Source: Marasmitruncus massiliensis
GTDB taxonomy: Bacteria > Bacillota > Clostridia > Oscillospirales > Ruminococcaceae
DNA: 64,000 bases
Direction of reading: 5' to 3'
NCBI RefSeq assembly: GCF_900186535.1
Contig: NZ_FYDE01000005.1
Coordinates: forward strand, 968,895 to 1,032,894
The notes under the pieces are model-generated. The model searched no databases. It was given only the letters and a program-made list of their open reading frames with translations, and was not told the origin of the DNA. Below are positions 9,971-60,043 of the stretch, one piece after another. Numbering within the stretch: position 1 is the first letter of the stretch; each line of letters opens with the position of its first letter. The position numbers and the translations under genes were made by a program.

Positions 9971-11047
<1,077 letters not shown>

Positions 11048-11073
11048 GCATCTGGATTTTCGCGCGACAAAAC

Positions 11074-11106
11074 GGGCGCGGGCAATCAACAGATTCGCCC
11101 GCGCCC
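11074..11106 (+). promoter_or_regulatory. Intercistronic stem-loop after the binding-protein gene
   Basis: Perfect 10-bp arms GGGCGCGGGC and GCCCGCGCCC with a 13-base loop and no T run. Likely a partial terminator or mRNA-stabilising hairpin that lets the binding protein be made in excess over the permease genes. Confidence 0.6.
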
Positions 11107-11255
11107 AAAACCGGACTCTATGGATTCCATCTGACCGATGGCTTTTAAACTTGAAAATCATCTGCTTCGGTATTGCCGGGCAGTCACATGGGCACGCCGG
11201 AATCCCGGCTGGCCTGATACACAGGGGCATACCCACAAAAAGGAGGATCATTCCG

Positions 11256-11894
11256 ATGCTGAGAAAAATCCTTGCAATTACTTTGGCAGCTTCAATAGCT
11301 CTCCTGTCGGCCGGCTGCGTTACAATCGTGAAGACAGGGGAGGAGGGAAAGCTGACCGGGGAAGTGGAATTCAACGCGGGCGATAATGTAGCGGAGATCT
11401 GGGAATCGAAGGTTCTGCCCGACCTCAACGAAAAGGCGGTGGATCTGGCACAATTTTTGACCGAAGCGAACGGCGACCTGAAGTCTCTTGCCTCAAAATA
11501 TGGAAAATACTCCATGGGAACCTCCGGGGAACTAAGCTATACGGTAAAGGGAACGGCTGTTGTCCAGGAAATTATTTCCGATAAAAAAGCAGGTTATATG
11601 ACCGTAAAACTGGACGGCTATTCCGGGCCCGAAACCATTAAACTACAGATCGGGACAGTCTATAAGGGATCGGCGGTGCGGGATTCTCTGGACTTTATTA
11701 AATTCGAGGATTACAAAAACCAGGTGGACTATGCTGCGGTTTCGCAGAGCCTGCATGAAACCATTCAGAACACCGTTATCAGTAAGCTGGATTTCGCGTC
11801 GCTTGCGGGGAAACAGATACAATTTGTCGGGTGCTTTACCGTGGATAAGGCGGACGAATTACTGATTACCCCGGTGCAGATCGAAGTGAAATAG
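11256..11894 (+). CDS. DUF2291 family lipoprotein of sugar ABC operon
   Basis: Predicted lipoprotein with lipobox LLSAGC (Cys about 21), 212 residues. The rest is a small soluble domain (GEVEFNAGDNVAEIWESKVL, GKQIQFVGCFTVDKADE) of the DUF2291 type, found beside ribose/erythritol-like ABC importers. The exact role is unknown; it may help the binding protein or bind ligand. Start ATG at 11256 is chosen for AGGAGG eight bases upstream; the frame is open much further but without a signal sequence. It lies 15 bases before the ATPase gene. Confidence 0.8.
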   Translation: MLRKILAITLAASIALLSAGCVTIVKTGEEGKLTGEVEFNAGDNVAEIWESKVLPDLNEKAVDLAQFLTEANGDLKSLASKYGKYSMGTSGELSYTVKGTAVVQEIISDKKAGYMTVKLDGYSGPETIKLQIGTVYKGSAVRDSLDFIKFEDYKNQVDYAAVSQSLHETIQNTVISKLDFASLAGKQIQFVGCFTVDKADELLITPVQIEVK

Positions 11895-11909
11895 GGAGGG
11901 GGCCATCGC

Positions 11910-13490
11910 ATGGAAAATCGGGACGGAGCGAATGATATCTGCCTGCATGCGCAAAATATAGATAAATTGTATCCCGGAACGAAAGCGCTCGATCAGGTTT
12001 CTTTTGATGTGCATACAGGGAAAGTCAATGTATTGATCGGTGAGAACGGCGCGGGCAAATCTACGCTGATGAAAATTATCGCGGGAATTGAACAGCCCAC
12101 CGCAGGGGAACTCTTTCTGGACGGCAGGCAAGTCAGCTTTCGCAGTACCGTGGAAGCGCGCAGATATGGAATCGGGATCATTCATCAGGAACTGAGCTTA
12201 TTTCCGAACCTGAATGTCTATCAGAACATTTTCATGGCCAATGAAAAGACAAAAAACGGCTGCTTCCTTGATAATAAAAAACATTACGCATTGGCGCATG
12301 AGGTGCTTGAACGTCTGGAGTATCCCATCAAACCCGATACGCTGGTGGGAAATCTGCGGGTAGGCCAGCAGCAGATGATTGAAATTGCGCGCAACCTGAT
12401 TCAGGAGGGGCTTAAAATCCTGATTATGGACGAACCGACTTCCTCACTGAGTGAAATGGAGGTCGAGGTGCTGTTCAAAATCATGCGTGAACTGACTGCG
12501 GCGGGCATCTCGATTGTTTACATATCGCACCGGCTTGAGGAAATCATGCGGATCGGGGACTATATAACCATCCTGCGGGATGGGAAACTCGTGGCGAAAG
12601 CGTCTGTCTGCGGGATTGACCTGCCGTGGATTGTGCGGCAGATGACCGGCGAAGGCAAATCCTACCCGAAAAAAGACCACAGCGTTGATTGGGCCGGGCA
12701 GGAAACCGTGCTGGAAGTAAAAGATCTGACGCTCCCAAAAAGCGGCGGTGGATATCTGCTGGACCATGTGAGCTTTGACCTGAAAAAAGGGGAAATCCTG
12801 GGGATTTACGGTTTGCTCGGCGCCGGGCGCACCGAAATTTTTGAGTGTATCATGGGGCTTCGGCCGGAGCATACGGGTACGATTGTCATGAATGGACAGG
12901 AAATCCCCGTAAAAAGCCTGTCTGAACAGATTGGACGCGGGTTTGCGTGGGTTCCGGAGGACCGCCAGCGCGAGGGTCTGGTGCAGACGCTGAGCATCGG
13001 GAAAAACATCTCGCTGTCCAGCCTGAAGCAGTATGTCCGCGGAATTTTCCTGAATGAACGGATGGAAGGCAAAAGCATCGATCAGATGATACGGGAAATC
13101 CATATCAAAGTCGCGGACAAATCCCTTCCGATCCTGTCACTTTCGGGAGGCAACCAGCAGAAGGTGGTCATTGCGAAAGGAATCCTGACCAGCCCCAAAA
13201 TCCTGCTTCTCGATGAACCCAGCCGCGGCATTGACATCGGCGCGAAAACCGAGGTATTCGATATCATCAACCAGTATGCTGCGCAGGGCCTGCCGCTCAT
13301 TGTAATTTCTTCGGAGCTGAATGAGATCATCGCGATTGCCGACCGGATTGTCGTGCTTTCCAACGGAATCAAAACCGCCGAATTTACAGGGGATGAGATT
13401 ACCGAAGACAATCTGGTTCTGGCATCCTATAAAGGGCACCATGGACACAATTCGAAAGAGAAGGAGTTTTCGGGCCATGAAATTCAATAA
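11910..13490 (+). CDS. Sugar ABC transporter ATP-binding protein, tandem nucleotide-binding domains
   Basis: Powers sugar import. The 526 residues hold two ABC domains as in RbsA/MglA. The first has Walker A GENGAGKST, Q-loop IIHQELSLFPN and Walker B ILIMDEPTSSL; its signature reads LRVGQQQM rather than LSGGQ. The second is the usual degenerate copy with GLLGAGRTE in place of Walker A, and has LSGGNQQK and LLLDEPSRGIDIG. It overlaps the permease gene by 14 bases. It belongs to the same operon as the isomerase, transketolase and kinase. Confidence 0.93.
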   Translation: MENRDGANDICLHAQNIDKLYPGTKALDQVSFDVHTGKVNVLIGENGAGKSTLMKIIAGIEQPTAGELFLDGRQVSFRSTVEARRYGIGIIHQELSLFPNLNVYQNIFMANEKTKNGCFLDNKKHYALAHEVLERLEYPIKPDTLVGNLRVGQQQMIEIARNLIQEGLKILIMDEPTSSLSEMEVEVLFKIMRELTAAGISIVYISHRLEEIMRIGDYITILRDGKLVAKASVCGIDLPWIVRQMTGEGKSYPKKDHSVDWAGQETVLEVKDLTLPKSGGGYLLDHVSFDLKKGEILGIYGLLGAGRTEIFECIMGLRPEHTGTIVMNGQEIPVKSLSEQIGRGFAWVPEDRQREGLVQTLSIGKNISLSSLKQYVRGIFLNERMEGKSIDQMIREIHIKVADKSLPILSLSGGNQQKVVIAKGILTSPKILLLDEPSRGIDIGAKTEVFDIINQYAAQGLPLIVISSELNEIIAIADRIVVLSNGIKTAEFTGDEITEDNLVLASYKGHHGHNSKEKEFSGHEIQ

Positions 13491-52344: not shown

Positions 52345-53535
52345 TTATTTTTTTGAGCCTTTATTGGAACTGTTGTCTGTATTTCCGCCGTTGTCGGACT
52401 TATCGGTGGACTTTGTCTCCGAATTGCCAGAACTCTTGCTGGCTTTTTCCGTTGTTTCCTTATCAGCTGCTTTGGAGGCTGCCTCCTCCTTGGCAGCGGC
52501 TTTGGAGGATGCAGCCGCTTCTTTATCAGCAGCTTTGGAGGACGCAGCCGTTTCTTTATCAGCAGCCTTGGAGGACGCGGACGCTTCCTTATCAGCAGCT
52601 TTGGAGGATACCGCGGCTTCCTTTTCGGCAGCCTTGGAAGATGCCTGAGCGGCTTTGGTATCTGCTGTCTCAATGCTTGCAGTGGAAGACGACGCTTCAG
52701 AAGAAGATTCGCTCTCCGATGAACTGGAGGATTCTTCGCTCGAAGAGCTTTCAGAGTCTGTTGGTTCCTCAGCGTCTTTGCCTGCCTTCGCAGCTTTTTT
52801 AGTTTCCTTGATGGCCTTCATGATCTCCTTGACCGGTTTGTTCAGCCAATCTTCCGTGCTGATCGTTTCAGAGTCCCCCGCGCTGGCCTGCAGCTTTTCC
52901 ACAAGATTGAGCTTTCCTGGGGTTACGCCCAGCTGTCTGGCTTCCTGAACGCGTTCCAATCCGACACTGATGGCCTCAACTGCAACGTCGTCGCCAGTTT
53001 CTTCCACAGTTTCCTCAACCTGCTGCTGAAGCTCCTCCGCCAGGCTCTCCGCTTCTTCTGAATTGTCCCCGGCGGTTGCAATCACAATTCCGCCTTCTTC
53101 AGCGCCTTCGAAATAGCCGTTTTCGGCAATCTGGAGGACAGTCTGGGAGATGGCCTCCTCAATCGGCTTATGCTTGAGCTTCTTTATGCCTAATTCTTCT
53201 ATAATTTCTTTCCCATCGTCGTTTACTGCCTTAACGGTCAGAACCCGCTTGAAACGGTTTAGGGAGTATTCCACCGAAGGGTTGACATCAAGGCTGACAT
53301 AAGAATAAGGAGTGGCATATGCCCATGCTGTGGTACCCAGAACACAAACTAAGGCAGCCGCCGATATTGCGGAAGCCAGCCACTTTGTATGTTTTTTCGC
53401 TTGATAAAACGACTGTTCTTTCAAATCAATCACCTGTCCGATCGTATAGTTTTGATTTTTCAACTTCACGATATTGCCATCGTCGGAAAGAACCGCAGCG
53501 TAACTATCTCTAAAATCTATCACGATTCCTCTCAT
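52345..53535 (-). CDS. rsgI: RsgI-type anti-sigma factor with repetitive C-terminal region
   Basis: Membrane anti-sigma factor holding SigI. The cytoplasmic RsgI_N domain (MRGIVIDFRDSYAAVLSDDG) is followed by one membrane helix (about residues 55-75) and the extracellular segment YVSLDVNPSVEYSLN. Its Asn-Pro is the known self-cleavage point of RsgI proteins. No carbohydrate-binding module follows. Instead come a helical domain, a Ser/Glu block and five 11-residue repeats (SSKAADKEAAA type), then a Ser/Asn/Lys tail. Start ATG at 53535 overlaps the sigI stop (ATGA), with AAGGAG eight bases upstream; 396 residues. Confidence 0.88.
   Translation of the reverse strand: MRGIVIDFRDSYAAVLSDDGNIVKLKNQNYTIGQVIDLKEQSFYQAKKHTKWLASAISAAALVCVLGTTAWAYATPYSYVSLDVNPSVEYSLNRFKRVLTVKAVNDDGKEIIEELGIKKLKHKPIEEAISQTVLQIAENGYFEGAEEGGIVIATAGDNSEEAESLAEELQQQVEETVEETGDDVAVEAISVGLERVQEARQLGVTPGKLNLVEKLQASAGDSETISTEDWLNKPVKEIMKAIKETKKAAKAGKDAEEPTDSESSSSEESSSSSESESSSEASSSTASIETADTKAAQASSKAAEKEAAVSSKAADKEASASSKAADKETAASSKAADKEAAASSKAAAKEEAASKAADKETTEKASKSSGNSETKSTDKSDNGGNTDNSSNKGSKK
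52477..52641 (-). repeat. Five 33-bp tandem repeats in rsgI
   Basis: Encode SSKAAEKEAAV, SSKAADKEASA, SSKAADKETAA, SSKAADKEAAA and SSKAAAKEEAA in a row. The DNA repeats the unit ...TTATCAGCAGCTTTGGAGGA on the plus strand. Such arrays change copy number readily. Confidence 0.85.
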
Positions 53536-54251
53536 TTGCACAGCTCCTTTCCAATGGCGCGTATATAATCTGCGAGGTAAGGATACTCTCCGGATAGTAT
53601 CACTACCGCCGCTATAATATACTTTCGGTAGCGTTCGATTATTTTTCGGGGTATCTGCGCATTTTTTTCAATACGGTTCAGCGGCAGCTGCCTGGTACGC
53701 GATAAAGTATCCAGCAGTTCAGGGTGGTTGACCATATATCGAATAATTTCAGCGCAGGCAAGCTTTGTTTTTTTCGCTTTGGGCGAACAGGAGACAAGGT
53801 CAAAAAAGGAAAAACCAAATTGCGCTAGAACTTCATTGGCTGCTTCGATTTCGTATTTCAGCGAATCGTCGCTTCTTTGAGAAACCGTTTTTGAAACCGC
53901 CTGTGTCACGGCAATTTCTTCTTCCTCCGTTTCTGAAGGAGTATCAAAGATGTAAGGGTCCACTGCGATTTCATGTGCGTATTTATTTTGCTTTCTTTGG
54001 TAATCAATCAACCTTCGGCAGATCACTTTATCTGCAAAACTAAAAAAGCTGCCCTTGTCCAATTGATAGCCTTCAACGGCTTGTACAAAGGCCTGCAGTG
54101 CAATCGCCCATTCGTCGTCGCTTTTGGAGATATAGCGGTGGGTTATTTTCGAAGCGGTTTTTATAATAAAAAATTCACTTTGCGCAATCAGTGTATTTAG
54201 TGTGGTTTCATCTGTGCGGGATTGCACTGCAATCTGATCAATTTCCTTCAA
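53532..54251 (-). CDS. sigI: RNA polymerase sigma factor SigI
   Basis: Alternative sigma factor controlled by RsgI; known members respond to heat or to extracellular polysaccharides. Region 2 (SKSDDEWAIALQAFVQAVEGYQLDKGSFFSFADKVI, quoted in part as AFVQAVEGYQLDKGSFFSFA) is strongly SigI-like. The C-terminal part has LNRIEKNAQIPRKIIERYRKYIIA. Start chosen at the TTG at 54251, seven bases after GGGAGGG, giving 239 residues as in other SigI. The frame is open to 54395 but without a ribosome site. A TATAAT lies just upstream (54290). Confidence 0.82.
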   Translation of the reverse strand: MKEIDQIAVQSRTDETTLNTLIAQSEFFIIKTASKITHRYISKSDDEWAIALQAFVQAVEGYQLDKGSFFSFADKVICRRLIDYQRKQNKYAHEIAVDPYIFDTPSETEEEEIAVTQAVSKTVSQRSDDSLKYEIEAANEVLAQFGFSFFDLVSCSPKAKKTKLACAEIIRYMVNHPELLDTLSRTRQLPLNRIEKNAQIPRKIIERYRKYIIAAVVILSGEYPYLADYIRAIGKELCK

Positions 54252-54517
54252 ATGAATATCCCTCCCAAGCAAATTTTTCTGTTCCATTATATCATAAAAA
54301 GAATCAAGCGATATTTGGAAAAAAATCCACATAATTTCGCCTGAAAACGGCTCCAAGTATTTATAGGTCAATAAACAATTCGTAACGATTTGCATTTTTT
54401 ATAAGGTCATCCGAAAAAAATTTGACTTTCGAATATCATAACAGAAATATAGTTCTGTCCGCGTTATCCAAATTTCAAGCTTTATGATTGCGTTTTCAAT
54501 AGAAAGCAATCACAAAA

Positions 54518-54593: not shown

Positions 54594-55019
54594 CTATGCT
54601 TTGTTTTTTGCTTTTTTGGCGCACTTTGGACAGATTCCGCAGAATTCCAAACTATGCCCGTTAATCGTATAGCCTGTTTTCTTTTCCAGTTCCGCTTCCA
54701 GTGATTCTAACGGGCAGTTCTCAATCAATATGATTTCATTGCAGGCCGTGCAAACCAGACGATGCTTATGCTGGTGACTGCTCAGCTGATAATAGGTTTT
54801 GCCATCCTGGCTGATGCTTTTGAGCAGAACTCCTTTTTCAGACAGGGTAGACAGTGTGCGGTAAACAGTGGAAAGTGTAACGGGTTCACCGTTCTGAAAG
54901 GCTTTGGCATAGATGTCTTCCGCAGTCAAAGATACAGCCGCATCTTCTATGATATGCAGCACAGTTTGGCGGCTTCTGGTATTTTTTAAGGCATTTATTT
55001 TTAAAATATCGTTTGCCAT
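54594..55019 (-). CDS. Fur-family metal regulator, probably Zur
   Basis: Metal-dependent repressor. HTH and hinge: AVSLTAEDIYAKAF, VTLSTVYRTLSTLSEKGVL. The metal part has HQHKHRLVCTACNEIILIENC (sensor His plus first CxxC) and FCGICPKCAKK (second CxxC structural zinc). Start at MANDIL (55019); the frame is open to 55052. It is divergent from a CobW/permease operon of zinc-handling type, so Zur is more likely than Fur or PerR. That call rests on context, since HTH sequence alone does not decide it. Confidence 0.82.
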   Translation of the reverse strand: MANDILKINALKNTRSRQTVLHIIEDAAVSLTAEDIYAKAFQNGEPVTLSTVYRTLSTLSEKGVLLKSISQDGKTYYQLSSHQHKHRLVCTACNEIILIENCPLESLEAELEKKTGYTINGHSLEFCGICPKCAKKAKNKA

Positions 55020-55052
55020 CGTTTCACCCGAAATCATCGTTTCTTCCCTCAC

Positions 55053-55127: not shown

Positions 55128-55180
55128 TTGACAGTGCCTGAAAATAGCTCTAGTATGAAATGCAAATGGTTCTTGTTTGC
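55128..55180 (+). promoter_or_regulatory. Promoter of the CobW operon, with an inverted repeat downstream
   Basis: TTGACA (55128-55133), 17 bases, TAGTAT (55151-55156). GCAAA-N9-TTTGC (55162-55180) lies just after. It does not match the Bacillus Zur box, so its role is only a suggestion. Confidence 0.6.
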
Positions 55181-55276: not shown

Positions 55277-56338
55277 ATGGCGAGGATTGATATTATATCC
55301 GGATTTTTGGGGGCAGGAAAAACGACACTGATCAAAAAGCTGCTGAAAGAATCATTTTCCACTGAAAAAGTTGTGCTGGTGGAAAATGAGTTCGGGGAGA
55401 TTGGGATCGACGGCGGATTTCTCCGTGAAGCCGGGATTGAGATTCAGGAAATGAATTCGGGCTGCATCTGCTGTACGCTTTCCGGCGACTTTACAAAAGC
55501 GATTAAGGAGGTTGTCCGGCGTTTTTCTCCGGAACGTATTATCATCGAACCGTCCGGTGTCGGTAAGCTGTCAGATGTTATCAAAGCCTGTGAACGTGCT
55601 GTGCAGACGGACGAATTGAAACTGAATATGTGTATATCTGTGGTGGATGCCACGAAATATCGGATCTATGTGAAAAATTTTGCAGAATTCTTCACCAATC
55701 AGATTGAACATGCAAAGACGATCATTCTCAGCAGGACGCAGAAGATGCAGGAAGAAAAACTGCGAGAGGTGGTTCTGGATATCCAGAAGCGCAATCCTAA
55801 GGCGAATGTGATCACCACCCCTTGGGAAGAACTGGCGGGGGAACGGATTGTGGCAGCCGCGGAATCTGATACGGCCCGTTCGTTTATTGAGCATGCGGTG
55901 GCTGCGACACAGCAGCCACACAAACACGGGTTACACTGTACCTGTGATCACGACCATGACCATGAACATGAACATGAACATAATGATCACCCGCAGGGCT
56001 GTTCCTGCGGCCATGAACATGAAACAGATGACGCCTCATGCTGTGAACATCATCACGCGGCTGACGAAGTATTTGGAACATGGGGCGTGGAAACGCCCAG
56101 GCAGTTTACCCGGGCGCGGCTTCAGGATGCTTTGAACAGCCTGTCTATGAACTCGGAATATGGAAACGTGCTGCGGGCGAAAGGGATTGTTCCGGTTGAA
56201 AACGGGGAATGGGTACAGTTTGACTATGTCCCGGATGAAACAGAAATCCGCCCGTGCGCCCCGGATTATACCGGGCGGCTTTGCGTGATTGGTGAAGATC
56301 TTTGCGCCGACTGCCTCAGCGCATTGTTTGAAGTTTAA
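55277..56338 (+). CDS. CobW/COG0523 G3E GTPase, His-rich metallochaperone
   Basis: GTP-dependent metal chaperone (ZagA/ZNG1-like). The P-loop GFLGAGKTTLIKKLL is followed by the metal site NSGCICCTLSGDF (CxCC), EPSGVGKL, and a G4-like region. At about residues 215-265 is a strongly His/Cys-rich stretch (HKHGLHCTCDHDHDHEHEHE and on to CSCGHEHE, CCEHHH), a probable zinc store. The CobW C-terminal domain ends the protein. Start ATG at 55277 after AAAGGA, 353 residues. First gene of a four-gene metal operon divergent from the Fur-family gene. Confidence 0.9.
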   Translation: MARIDIISGFLGAGKTTLIKKLLKESFSTEKVVLVENEFGEIGIDGGFLREAGIEIQEMNSGCICCTLSGDFTKAIKEVVRRFSPERIIIEPSGVGKLSDVIKACERAVQTDELKLNMCISVVDATKYRIYVKNFAEFFTNQIEHAKTIILSRTQKMQEEKLREVVLDIQKRNPKANVITTPWEELAGERIVAAAESDTARSFIEHAVAATQQPHKHGLHCTCDHDHDHEHEHEHNDHPQGCSCGHEHETDDASCCEHHHAADEVFGTWGVETPRQFTRARLQDALNSLSMNSEYGNVLRAKGIVPVENGEWVQFDYVPDETEIRPCAPDYTGRLCVIGEDLCADCLSALFEV

Positions 56339-56365: not shown

Positions 56366-57646
56366 TTGAAACAGAAGCTCATTTGGCTAGCGACGGTCGC
56401 GGCTTCATTACTCTGTATCATTCTCGGAAACAGGGTTGCCGTTCAGGGGCTGACATCGTTCAGCGGAGCCGAAACTGCCTCGGTCGAAAAAGTCAGGGTA
56501 ATCGAAATACTCAGTAAAGAGACGGTAAAACCCGAATATGCGGGGATGCCTGGCGACAACATTAATATCAAATTTCGCGCGGTGATCCTCAGCGGTATCC
56601 ACAAGGGAGAGGAACTGGAAGCAATGCAGCTGATTAACCCGATGCAGCCCCTCCCAATCAAGGAGGCGCAGCCGGGTGTCAAATTTCTGGTCACCAAAGA
56701 CCAGTCGGGCGTTTATGACGCCGATACATGGTATGCGTCACAGGATGTCAGGAGCGACGCGCTGATTGGATTAGGGCTGTTTTTTGCGGTGTGCCTGCTC
56801 CTGTTTGGACGAATGAAAGGATTTGATACCATTCTGTCGATGGGGTTCACCTGCTCGGCGATCTTTCTGGTGCTGATCCCGGCGATATTGTCCGGAAAAA
56901 ACATTTATGTCTGGTCGATGCTTGTTTGCTCGTATATCGTAGCCATGACGCTGCTGATCGTCACAAGAGCCAATATGAAAAGCCTCGGGGCCGGACTTGG
57001 ATGTGCGGGGGGCGTGCTGGCGTCCGGAGGGCTTATGTTTTTCATGAGCCATATCATGAGCTTGACAGGAATGGTCGACGAAGAATCGTATTATTTGCAA
57101 TTTTTAAACGGCGAGAACCCTATCGATATGAAGGCAATCATCTTTGCTGCGATCATCATCGGCGCGATCGGGGCTGTGATGGATGTCGCCGTATCAGTTG
57201 CGACGTCGCTGTATGAAGTCTGCAGAAACACCGAGCATCCGGATTTTTTCCTGATGGTAAAATCGGGGTTTGCCATTGGTCAGGATATGATTGGCACGAT
57301 GGCGAACACATTAGTCCTTGCATATATCGGAAGCTCGCTTTCGACCGTTTTACTGCTTGCCGCTTATAACCGTTCGATTCTTTCGCTGCTGAACCGTGAA
57401 ATGATCGTCGTCGAAATTTTGCAGGCGCTGATCGGCAGCCTTGGCATCCTGCTCACAATTCCTCTGACCTCCGTGGTTTGCGGCTTCCTGTATGCGGGCA
57501 GGCCCCGCCTGAAAAAATTTCGCGGGCCAAAAGCTGGGAAACAAGACAGGATGGCTATTGGAAATGACTATGGCGGGCTGACGCAGTATGATACTCTTCG
57601 GAATAAATTCTCGGAATTGGAGGGGCAGGATGGAAGTTCAGATTGA
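56366..57646 (+). CDS. YibE/F-like membrane protein
   Basis: 426 residues. One N-terminal helix, then a small outside OB-like domain (VRVIEILSKETVKPEYAG, GEELEAMQLINPMQPLPIKE), then seven or more helices. The conserved segment GAIGAVMDVAVSVATSLYEV is followed by KSGFAIGQDMIGTMANTLVLAYIG, seen here in parts. The family's function is not established. Start TTG at 56366 after GAGGAGAG. It overlaps the next gene by 17 bases, so it works with the metal operon. Confidence 0.85.
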   Translation: MKQKLIWLATVAASLLCIILGNRVAVQGLTSFSGAETASVEKVRVIEILSKETVKPEYAGMPGDNINIKFRAVILSGIHKGEELEAMQLINPMQPLPIKEAQPGVKFLVTKDQSGVYDADTWYASQDVRSDALIGLGLFFAVCLLLFGRMKGFDTILSMGFTCSAIFLVLIPAILSGKNIYVWSMLVCSYIVAMTLLIVTRANMKSLGAGLGCAGGVLASGGLMFFMSHIMSLTGMVDEESYYLQFLNGENPIDMKAIIFAAIIIGAIGAVMDVAVSVATSLYEVCRNTEHPDFFLMVKSGFAIGQDMIGTMANTLVLAYIGSSLSTVLLLAAYNRSILSLLNREMIVVEILQALIGSLGILLTIPLTSVVCGFLYAGRPRLKKFRGPKAGKQDRMAIGNDYGGLTQYDTLRNKFSELEGQDGSSD

Positions 57647-59219
57647 TGTGGTTACGGGGTTCCTTGAATCCGGGAAAACCAGCTTTATCCAAAGCCTGCT
57701 GGAGCGGGACGTAATAGCGGCGGGAAGGCCGACTGTCCTTTTGGTATGCGAGGAAGGGCTCGAAGAATATGATCCAGAACAGCTGAAAGCTAAAAATATT
57801 ACTTTGGTAACGGCGGATGATCCAAACACCCTGAATCAGACATTCTTTCAGAATTTAATCGGAACCCATAAGCCGCACCGTATCCTGGTTGAGTATAACG
57901 GTACATGGAAGATCGGCAGCCTGCTGAAAATCAAGCTTCCGGACGGCTGCAGGATCAACAGTATTGTGGGGCTGGTGGATGCCTCCACCTTTGAAACATA
58001 TATGTCCAATATGAGCCGTATGATGGCGGAACAGCTTGCGAATTGTGATGTGATCTTTGTCAACCGGTTTGAGGAGCTTGAACCGGAGCAGGCAGATATC
58101 ATTCGGAGAAGTTTAAAAAATATCAACCGAAAAGCGGAAAAGGCGTTTTTTAAAAACCGGATACCGAAGAATATTTTAAAACGTTATTTCATGATTGCCG
58201 GCCCCAGCCTTTGGAAAGTTGCAAAGGGCTTTCTAGTCGTTTTTCTGTTTTGGGCGGTCGTTATGTATTTTCAGGCGGTGCAGGCTCTTGCGCTGGAAAA
58301 TCAGTATACATTTCTGCAATCGGTCAATACCATTTTTATCAGTATTCTTCTGCAGGCGATTCCGTTTGTTTTGATCGGGGTTTTTACCTCTTCCATTTTG
58401 CAGGTATTTGTTTCGGATACGCTGCTTGTCCGCCTGTTTACCAAACATCGTCTGTTGGGTGCGCCGCTGGCCGTTGTTCTGGGCGTGTTCTTTCCGGTGT
58501 GTGATTGTGCAATGGCGCCTGTCGTTGCCCGTATGGTGCGTAAAGGAGTCCCGCTTTCCTATGCGGTCACCTTTCTGCTTGCGGCTCCGGTAGTCAACCC
58601 GGTGGTCATATGGTCCACGCTCTATGCGTTCCCGGGGCAGCCCCGGATTGTACTGCTGCGGGTGGTTTGGGGCATTCTGGTGGCGCTGATTGCGGGCCTG
58701 CTGATTCCGCTCCTTTGGAAGAAGGGACTTCCTGTCCAGCGGACGATCATTGATTCGACCTGCGCCAGCGGATATATCGGTGACAGTTCTTCCGAAGGCT
58801 TCCGAGGTAAACTGGAAATACTGTTTCGGCACGCGGGTATGGAATTTTTCAATGTGGGGCGTTATGTGGTGGCCGGCGCACTGATATCGTCCGTGTTGCA
58901 GGTGCTGGTTCCCAAAACCGCGCTTTTGGGAACAGCACAAAATGTTGTGCTGGCACCGCTCGCAATGCTTGTGGCGGCATTCCTGATGTCGGTCTGCTCC
59001 ACTTCCAACGCGTTTATTGCCAGGAGCTTTTCTTATACGTTCCCGATTGGGTCGGTGCTGGGTTTTATGGTAATGGGGCCGATGCTTGATTTGAAGAACC
59101 TGCTGATGCTGATGAGCGGTTTCCGTAGAGGTTTTGTTCTTCGTCTGGCGGGACTGCTGGCAGTCATCGGCTGGATTGGATTTGTGACAGCGACAATCGC
59201 TGGGCAGGGGGTGTTATGA
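57630..59219 (+). CDS. Fusion of CobW-type GTPase domain and YcgR/YraQ-type permease
   Basis: 529 residues. The N-terminal ~170 are a shortened G3E GTPase: P-loop TGFLESGKTSFIQSLLERD, switch-like VEYNGTWKIGSL, and a VNRFEEL G4 region; no CxCC metal motif is present. From about residue 200 begins a PF03773-type permease with about eight helices, including PVCDCAMAPVVARMV, LAAPVVNPVVIWSTL and VCSTSNAFIARSF. Start ATG at 57630 after GGAGGGG. The fusion ties a chaperone-like GTPase to a membrane transporter; probable role in zinc or other metal traffic. Confidence 0.82.
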   Translation: MEVQIDVVTGFLESGKTSFIQSLLERDVIAAGRPTVLLVCEEGLEEYDPEQLKAKNITLVTADDPNTLNQTFFQNLIGTHKPHRILVEYNGTWKIGSLLKIKLPDGCRINSIVGLVDASTFETYMSNMSRMMAEQLANCDVIFVNRFEELEPEQADIIRRSLKNINRKAEKAFFKNRIPKNILKRYFMIAGPSLWKVAKGFLVVFLFWAVVMYFQAVQALALENQYTFLQSVNTIFISILLQAIPFVLIGVFTSSILQVFVSDTLLVRLFTKHRLLGAPLAVVLGVFFPVCDCAMAPVVARMVRKGVPLSYAVTFLLAAPVVNPVVIWSTLYAFPGQPRIVLLRVVWGILVALIAGLLIPLLWKKGLPVQRTIIDSTCASGYIGDSSSEGFRGKLEILFRHAGMEFFNVGRYVVAGALISSVLQVLVPKTALLGTAQNVVLAPLAMLVAAFLMSVCSTSNAFIARSFSYTFPIGSVLGFMVMGPMLDLKNLLMLMSGFRRGFVLRLAGLLAVIGWIGFVTATIAGQGVL

Positions 59220-60043
59220 TGAAAAAAATCAATGGGGAAGTTTTATTGCAGATGATTCTGATCGCTGTCATCGATGCTTTCCTTGTCGGTTTGCTTGTTA
59301 CCGGAAAAGTGAAAAATTATATCCATCCACGTTTGATTTTATATCTGTGGTTTGCGGTGGGAGCATTGGCCGTCATTGCGCTTTTGATGATTCCGGTGAT
59401 GCTTCAGCCCCGCCACAAGGTAAGCCTGTTCCCGTATCTTATTTTTGTGTTTCCCCTATTGACCGGTTTCATTCTGCCGCCGACGACAGATATGGCGCAG
59501 GTAGCGGGGATCGGGACAGGAAAGACAATCTCTTCCCCCGGGTTGTCCGAACAGGCCCCGCAGAACCTGCAGGATACGGTTTCTCAGCTTACTTTCCCGG
59601 AACAGGAAGCATCGCAGAGCAGTTCCTCAGCCCCAGAAAGCGGTGAATCCGCTGAAAAGGTCGATGTTCCGGACGGGGTGACTCTGATCACCGACGACGA
59701 ATATCTTGACTGGTATATGGATGTTTATGAAAATCCGGAAAAATACGAGGGGAAGCAGTATAAGATCAAGGGTACTGTCTTTCGGATGGACGGATTTGCC
59801 GATAATGAGTTTGTCCCGGCCCGCATGGCGATGGTATGCTGCGCCGCGGATTTGGCAGCGGCGGGCTTCCTGTGCAGGGCTGACGATGCAAAAAAGTGGA
59901 ATGATGGCGACTGGATATGGGTAACCGCAACCATAAAGGTTGAATTTGAAAAAAATATGGGAGAAACCATGCCGATCCTTTACCCCTCCTCCATTGAACC
60001 AGCGGAAAAGCCCAAAGAAGAATGGGTATATCCCACCTATTAA
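59216..60043 (+). CDS. TIGR03943-like (YcgQ) membrane protein
   Basis: 275 residues. Three N-terminal helices, a Ser/Gln/Pro-rich linker (about 100-145), and an outside domain (ITDDEYLDWYMDVYENPEKY, GKQYKIKGTVFRMDGFADNE, MVCCAADLAAAGFLCRA). These are the family marks, with a CC pair that could bind metal. It overlaps the permease gene by 4 bases. In Bacillus the homologous ycgR-ycgQ pair also lies next to a permease of the same type. Confidence 0.82.
   Translation: MMKKINGEVLLQMILIAVIDAFLVGLLVTGKVKNYIHPRLILYLWFAVGALAVIALLMIPVMLQPRHKVSLFPYLIFVFPLLTGFILPPTTDMAQVAGIGTGKTISSPGLSEQAPQNLQDTVSQLTFPEQEASQSSSSAPESGESAEKVDVPDGVTLITDDEYLDWYMDVYENPEKYEGKQYKIKGTVFRMDGFADNEFVPARMAMVCCAADLAAAGFLCRADDAKKWNDGDWIWVTATIKVEFEKNMGETMPILYPSSIEPAEKPKEEWVYPTY

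Follow-up and report, generated by a model that had tools for sequence, protein, structure and literature searches.

The window analysed here is a stretch of 64,000 nucleotides from Marasmitruncus massiliensis, and on its forward strand a single open frame at 57630..59219 encodes a protein of 529 amino acids in which a GTPase is followed by a membrane permease. Upstream of this fusion gene on the same strand lie the gene for a canonical CobW-type GTPase (55277..56338), which has a P-loop, the motif GCICC and a His-rich stretch (Pfam cobW 136.4 bits, CobW_C 37.6 bits), and the gene for a YibE/F-like membrane protein (56366..57646; Pfam YibE_F 230.4 bits), which overlaps the fusion start by 17 bases. 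Directly downstream follows the gene for YcgQ (59216..60043; DUF1980, TIGR03943), overlapping the fusion stop by 4 bases; its product scores 147.9 bits against TIGR03943 (NCBIfam cut-off 88.8), is matched by both the N and the C parts of DUF1980 in Pfam, and carries the invariant pair C208-C209. The canonical CxCC protein is encoded by a separate gene in the same operon as the fusion. Divergent from this operon, on the reverse strand, is the gene for a Fur-family regulator, which we propose to be Zur (54594..55052; Pfam FUR 92.9 bits), while on the operon side of the intergenic region a consensus scan finds the promoter-like site TTGACA-17-TAGTAT (55128..55156, forward strand, 10/12), with a proposed Zur operator (55158..55180, forward strand) directly 3' of its -10 element. 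As to the YibE/F-like protein, relatives with 59% and 31% identity in two other genomes (L098:4098-4601 and L109:244-1338) adjoin a YcgQ or permease gene on the opposite strand, and YibE/F may act in one pathway with YcgQ and the permease.

Both halves of the fusion protein are recognised by Pfam above cut-off. The cobW family (PF02492) matches residues 7-170 with 47.6 bits (cut-off 20.7), within a GTPase domain of residues 1-176 (57630..58157), and ArsP_1 (PF03773) matches residues 229-513 (58314..59168) with 200.1 bits (cut-off 32.3). The P-loop at residues 10-17 reads GFLESGKT, while inspection of the protein finds no CxCC and Pfam finds no CobW_C. Up to an E value of 10 the Pfam list consists of ArsP_1 and cobW only, so that membership of FeoB is ruled out by the absence of any FeoB domain; a PHROGs search gave no match. 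The preliminary description of this DNA had proposed exactly such a GTPase, with a P-loop and without CxCC, continuing into a PF03773-type permease, and sequence and Pfam agree with it. It had also considered that a frameshift or misassembly near codon 180 might have joined two genes, an explanation to which the first sample of relatives could lend some colour, since there the full fusion was found in 1 of 61 genomes, the window's own. However, the architecture search which that description had suggested recovers the two-domain protein intact at 33 loci (29 distinct) spread over several families, among them Ruminiclostridium papyrosolvens, Clostridium ihumii, six Peptostreptococcus records and further sample genomes. 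An artefact of this kind is thus ruled out, its probability being negligible, and the fusion is real, neither a frameshift nor a misassembly.

These counts come from genome sets that are draws, namely 61 relatives, 394 genomes of the order, 391 of the class and 398 of the phylum, together with a scan of named genomes. The scan brought nine relatives, eight being the full fusions of the three named taxa listed above, while in the ninth, a Lachnospiraceae bacterium, the same GTPase is joined to the C-terminal domain of YcgQ. Three additional fusions occur in the order of the window (G203, G417, G069). With A3, a profile built from nine fusions, full-length matches were found in 17 of the 391 class-sample genomes and in 5 of the 398 phylum-sample genomes, the window's genome being included each time, and two weaker fusions of the class sample (L113 and L114) were recognised on annotation. 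Some of the sample fusions are of the same species as named records; in total there are 33 fusion loci, or 29 once near-copies at 97% are removed. YcgQ adjoins the fusion in all 33, and a CobW gene is nearby, that is at most three annotated open frames away on either strand, in 28; among the five others, L103 starts at a contig edge and the CobW gene of G069 lies about 6 kb further. One genome (G561) has two fusions (C43 and C20), and two others (G586 and G663) have separate GTPase and permease genes plus one GTPase frame of about 320 amino acids each.

The GTPase of the fusion belongs to a CxCC-less subfamily which we name GTP2, and 79 GTP2 domains were compared. As they were drawn from loci fetched as matches, they give no measure of frequency, and the count omits 25 locus ids that duplicate or overlap others in the set, as well as GTP2 matches below 60 bits (at least one, in L130). 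The P-loop GxxxxGK[ST] is present in all 79 domains and CxCC in none, while of 73 P-loop-bearing CobW frames 72 have CxCC, the exception (L031) not being next to a GTP2. In all 74 deduplicated domains G10, G15, K16, E41, G43, E88 and N90 are invariant; the guanine-binding motif is degenerate, mostly NR, so that the nucleotide specificity is not fixed by sequence. E41 is aligned to the E of NEFG in the canonical CobW neighbour and corresponds to E37 of YjiA, so that GTP2 has retained the glutamate and lost the cysteines. According to the title of PDB entry 4ixn, E37, C66 and C67 were jointly mutated in Zn-bound YjiA. A GTP2 profile searched against PDB finds YjiA (E 1.6e-6), and the GTPase part taken by itself finds nothing useful there in a plain sequence search. 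For an AlphaFold model built from nine sequences (pLDDT 72, pTM 0.53), the best PDB matches by Foldseek are YjiA (E 2.5e-4) and HypB; 4 of 983 matches have E of 0.001 or less, every one a GTPase, and at this threshold the permease part has no match. With a Pfam score above cut-off and a G3E fold by Foldseek, the fused domain is assigned to G3E (PF02492) as a conserved CxCC-less subfamily, predicted to bind and hydrolyse GTP. In COG0523, the CobW_C domain is usual. CxCC is stated for all members of that group in the part of Haas 2009 used here, and the fused domain, having neither feature, is ruled out as a member.

GTP2 occurs in three architectures. In the first, (a), it shares one chain with the permease (33 loci). 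In the second, (b), it is a separate gene of about 210 amino acids in the order CobW, GTP2, permease (L107, L110, L111, L112), with YcgQ in view in three of these four genomes; a fifth GTP2 that stands alone (L017) is interrupted by a contig end. In the third, (c), found at 41 loci, it shares a chain with the YcgQ C-terminal domain, giving proteins of 311-324 amino acids in 11 sequences, and the one such protein for which hydropathy was computed (L036) has no hydrophobic segment. This GTP2-YcgQ_C form is very common in the order of the window, and it is placed behind a canonical CobW gene at L036:8075-9025 and 40 more loci. In one A3 search, 58 rows (56 genomes) match the GTPase part alone in frames of about 310-342 amino acids, and two of these rows (L116, L117), as well as L145 from the other A3 search, are all annotated as GTP2-YcgQ_C; in the order sample, a GTP2 profile at 1e-10 matches 145 of 394 genomes, with canonical CobW proteins at the weak end. 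At one locus of this form (L039:9260-9400, reverse strand), a TTAGGTTAGACTAACTAA-like sequence, similar to DtxR-type boxes in appearance, lies upstream of CobW and GTP2-YcgQ_C, and this branch may respond to a different metal.

Since GTP2 is joined either to the permease or to the YcgQ C-domain, one GTPase appears as covalent partner of either member of the YcgR/YcgQ pair. It had been suggested beforehand, on the ground of the fusion, that COG0523 GTPases and YcgR-type permeases, separate proteins in known operons, work as one machine, perhaps with loading or gating by GTP. The first half of this stands in that GTPase and permease belong together, as indicated by the recurrence of the fusion, the unfused genes in the same order and the fusion with a YcgQ domain; what has to be given up is COG0523 as the name of the permease-linked GTPase, which is not canonical (no CxCC in any of the 79 domains, no CobW_C in the fusion), and the separateness of the two proteins holds in some lineages and not in general. 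A tree of 74 GTP2 domains and 18 CobW proteins, with long branches and numerous weak forks, is compatible with a single origin of the YcgQ_C fusion (c), and the number of permease fusions (a) cannot be counted from it. Form (c) could be derived from (a) via one in-frame deletion that took out the permease together with the membrane portion of YcgQ.

A CobW-type gene is near 73 of the 79 GTP2 loci, including 40 of the 41 GTP2-YcgQ_C loci, none of which (0/41) has a permease nearby. Such constant company might mean that GTP2 is mainly a docking platform, which would form a mixed G3E dimer with CobW and hand zinc over to it, GTP turnover timing the release and the permease working independently of GTP. 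G3E GTPases act as dimers, and GTP2, though without CxCC, yet keeps the glutamate aligned to that of the CobW NEFG, both of which speak for docking; genomic company, however, is no proof that GTP2 and CobW are in contact, and we regard docking as the main function as rather unlikely, though deserving attention.

For the membrane partners, C291-D292-C293 (58500..58508) and C456 of the permease are invariant in the nine aligned fusions, and so is the CC of YcgQ in an alignment of nine, which appears as TCC or VCC in 11 GTP2-YcgQ_C proteins. Hydropathy gives eight segments in the fusion, and for YcgQ three in the membrane part and one weak segment within its C-domain, a domain which resembles OB folds, a likeness that does not indicate function. 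With three segments the C-domain of YcgQ would be on the side opposite to its N-terminus, in conflict with a cytosolic GTP2-YcgQ_C, and this counts against the permease being a zinc importer gated by its own GTPase, the reading we prefer below; with two segments, as reported for a Streptococcus homologue in the part of PMC5584981 used here, the conflict disappears. The nearest NCBIfam models of the fusion permease are efflux families with scores far under cut-off, namely the SO_0444 Cu/Zn efflux model (59.5 against 300 bits) and the SaoE efflux model (56.8 against 325 bits), neither of which assigns the protein. This nearness is one ground for considering that the permease might export, or might move another metal, a zinc complex or a sulfur or arsenic compound, with the GTPase sensing metal status, and the control region and the neighbouring genes bear on this as well.

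The promoter scan is weak alone, since the region has 7 sites where shuffles have 5.5; the proposed operator directly after the -10 element has a placement that fits repression. Palindromes of the ATGCAAATNATTTGCAT type are found upstream of some fusion operons (L086, L087, L097, with a variant in L119) and not of every one. The operator pattern was derived without the window and without znuA, and allowing up to two mismatches it has two sites in the window's genome. The better of these (1 mismatch) directly precedes a ZnuA-family gene (312.6 bits against PF01297), and the second lies upstream of an unrelated membrane protein. In G203, one of three sites is ahead of ZnuA and an ABC ATPase and two are within coding frames; the further matches inspected in other genomes are mostly within coding frames. 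A reversed control pattern has 2 sites per strand in G706 and none in the other five of the six genomes. When a matrix is built from six sites, its scores in the intergenic region next to ZnuA are 13.0-21.4 for six genomes (G000, G1131, G561, G642, G203, G069), and next to ZnuA in G1151 it scores 10.7; it reaches 14 or more at 19 of 119492 positions (nine loci), the training sites of G069 and G1151 among them. It finds nothing on the fusion or ZnuA side of G542 nor upstream of CobW in G1094, and the window's own operator is not among its eight best sites. With the 23-mer upstream of znuA of the same genome, the best match in the window is 55158-55180 (18/23), a score that none of 2000 mononucleotide shuffles of this intergenic region attains, and the next-best (17/23) is in coding sequence. 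A longer pattern made from these two sites matches nothing else in the genome exactly, which is partly due to how it was made; when up to three mismatches are allowed, it has 8 sites on each strand, compared with 4 and 5 for the control. Upstream of CobW at the GTP2-YcgQ_C loci, a 19-base palindrome of any kind is found in 3 of 39 and one of Zur type in none, so that a zinc link is not supported for that branch.

ZnuA was searched in 18 of the 26 fusion-bearing genomes (named records apart); seven of these (G1131, G542, G561, G642, G1151, G203, G069) have a PF01297 gene at most 5 kb from the fusion, and in 11 none was found within this distance. By our own arithmetic, about 1% per genome or less is expected by chance. 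In G1131 and G561, genes for ZnuA, an ATPase, a ZnuB-like protein, Fur, CobW, the fusion and YcgQ follow each other on one strand. The top NCBIfam scores of the ZnuA-family proteins are for zinc models (AdcA, AztC), below cut-off and not far above those of manganese models; as PF01297 includes manganese-binding proteins, these scores do not settle the metal. For the ZnuB-like protein of G561 the best model is AztB, also below cut-off. The Fur protein of the window is 60% identical to the one beside the Ruminiclostridium fusion and 28% to the only other Fur match of its genome, and this comparison places it with the Fur proteins of these clusters; in NCBIfam it stays below cut-off for every Fur, PerR and Zur model, and for the Fur proteins the Fur and PerR scores exceed the Zur score, all below cut-off. 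With this cluster-type Fur, the znuA-like operator, which the six-site matrix however does not rank, and the linkage to ZnuA-family genes in 7 of the 18 genomes, the fusion operon may well be under Zur control, and zinc can be proposed as the metal of the fusion. In Bacillus anthracis, a Zur gel shift upstream of an ArsP_1 permease gene adjoining yciC, described in the part of PMC6336718 used here, counts for zinc; what counts against is that positive Zur control of that gene was predicted there from position, its substrate not being given, and that B. subtilis ycgR/ycgQ are reported under ECF sigma factors (PMC5584981, in part). The predicted positive control and the possible manganese binding of PF01297 proteins add to the case for export or another substrate, whereas an operator at the transcription start, repressor-like and resembling that of znuA, and the clustering with znuABC-type genes, which suggests uptake, argue against it, and we consider it improbable.

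The likeliest reading, which we hold with modest confidence, is a permease that imports zinc and is gated by the GTPase it carries. The fusion would be the large subunit of a two-subunit YcgR/YcgQ permease made in zinc starvation, with a G3E-type GTPase carried at its cytoplasmic N-terminus. Under zinc shortage a Zur-type repressor would come off the operator at the promoter and the operon would be expressed along with ZnuABC; the permease and YcgQ would then import zinc or a zinc complex via the conserved C-D-C site, GTP would be bound through the intact P-loop, and the CxCC-less GTPase would act as a switch at the cytoplasmic face which gates the permease. The fused GTPase probably meets the neighbouring CobW chaperone, which would receive the zinc. 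The sequences themselves show the architecture and its recurrence, the conserved GTPase residues and missing CxCC, the neighbouring CobW and YcgQ genes, and the operators and linkage in common with ZnuA-family genes; zinc as substrate, the direction of import, the gating by GTP and the contact with CobW are what we infer from them. Support for gated zinc import comes from the recurrence, the unfused genes in the same order, the GTP2-YcgQ_C fusion, the operators, the ZnuA linkage and the cluster-type Fur; against it are the degenerate guanine-binding motif, the efflux families as nearest permease models, the Fur and ZnuA scores below cut-off, the 11 of 18 genomes where ZnuA was not near the fusion, and the unranked operator of the window. 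We thus place it first, docking to CobW second, and export or another substrate third, the first two not being exclusive.

In FeoB, an N-terminal cytoplasmic GTPase is carried on a metal permease in a single chain, and the fusion is like it in this layout; it differs in having a G3E GTPase and a PF03773 permease and no FeoB domain, so that by its domains it is FeoB-like and not a FeoB. The FeoB permease and its intramolecular G protein are mentioned in PMC9164220, as far as used here, and in a reference title. With CobW-type G3E proteins of COG0523 (YjiA, YciC) the fusion shares PF02492 and the P-loop, YjiA ranking first in PDB both in the profile search and in the fold comparison, and it differs from them by the missing CxCC (0/79) and CobW_C and by the attached membrane domain. 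The YcgR/YcgQ pair known as ScfAB in group A Streptococcus and SMU_747 in S. mutans has the same permease family and a DUF1980 partner in adjacent genes, and the passages of PMC5584981 used here mention no fused GTPase for it. BAS1632 of Bacillus anthracis brings an ArsP_1 permease, a COG0523 neighbour and Zur together, in separate genes and with positive control predicted, a likeness by description and not by sequence (PMC6336718, in part). Within open-access PMC full text, as far as it was searched, no description of a fusion of CobW/G3E with PF03773 or of CobW with DUF1980 was found, and the words permease, fused and fusion are absent from the text of Haas 2009 used here. The parts are already known; what appears new is how they are combined, the CxCC-less subfamily that is joined to one or the other of two partners, and the assignment to zinc.

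A 2018 review calls the role of zinc-linked COG0523 GTPases in zinc homeostasis unclear (PMC6103462, in the part used here), and a conserved GTPase-permease module in ZnuABC-type and Fur clusters makes this question directly testable. Group A Streptococcus requires the YcgR/YcgQ pair in a model of soft-tissue infection, the function of the pair being given as unknown there (PMC5584981, in part), and zinc import would supply a proposed function for it. More speculatively, and with somewhat more doubt than belief on our side, GTPase-coupled metal import could have evolved a second time and independently, with the G3E-YcgR fusion as a class of its own, a zinc counterpart of FeoB in which the pairing of GTP2 with CobW leaves no zinc free. 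If true, there would be a physical supply of zinc at the membrane for the COG0523 proteins of zinc starvation.

Next to the fusion operon in G1094, the genes at L207:8489-9121 and 10409-11960 look like what we take to be a CbiM/CbiQ/ATPase metal uptake system. In the window itself, the reverse strand carries at 52345-54395 a gene pair that resembles one for a SigI-type sigma factor with an RsgI-like partner, and this partner ends in a long Ser/Ala/Lys/Glu-rich repeat tail.
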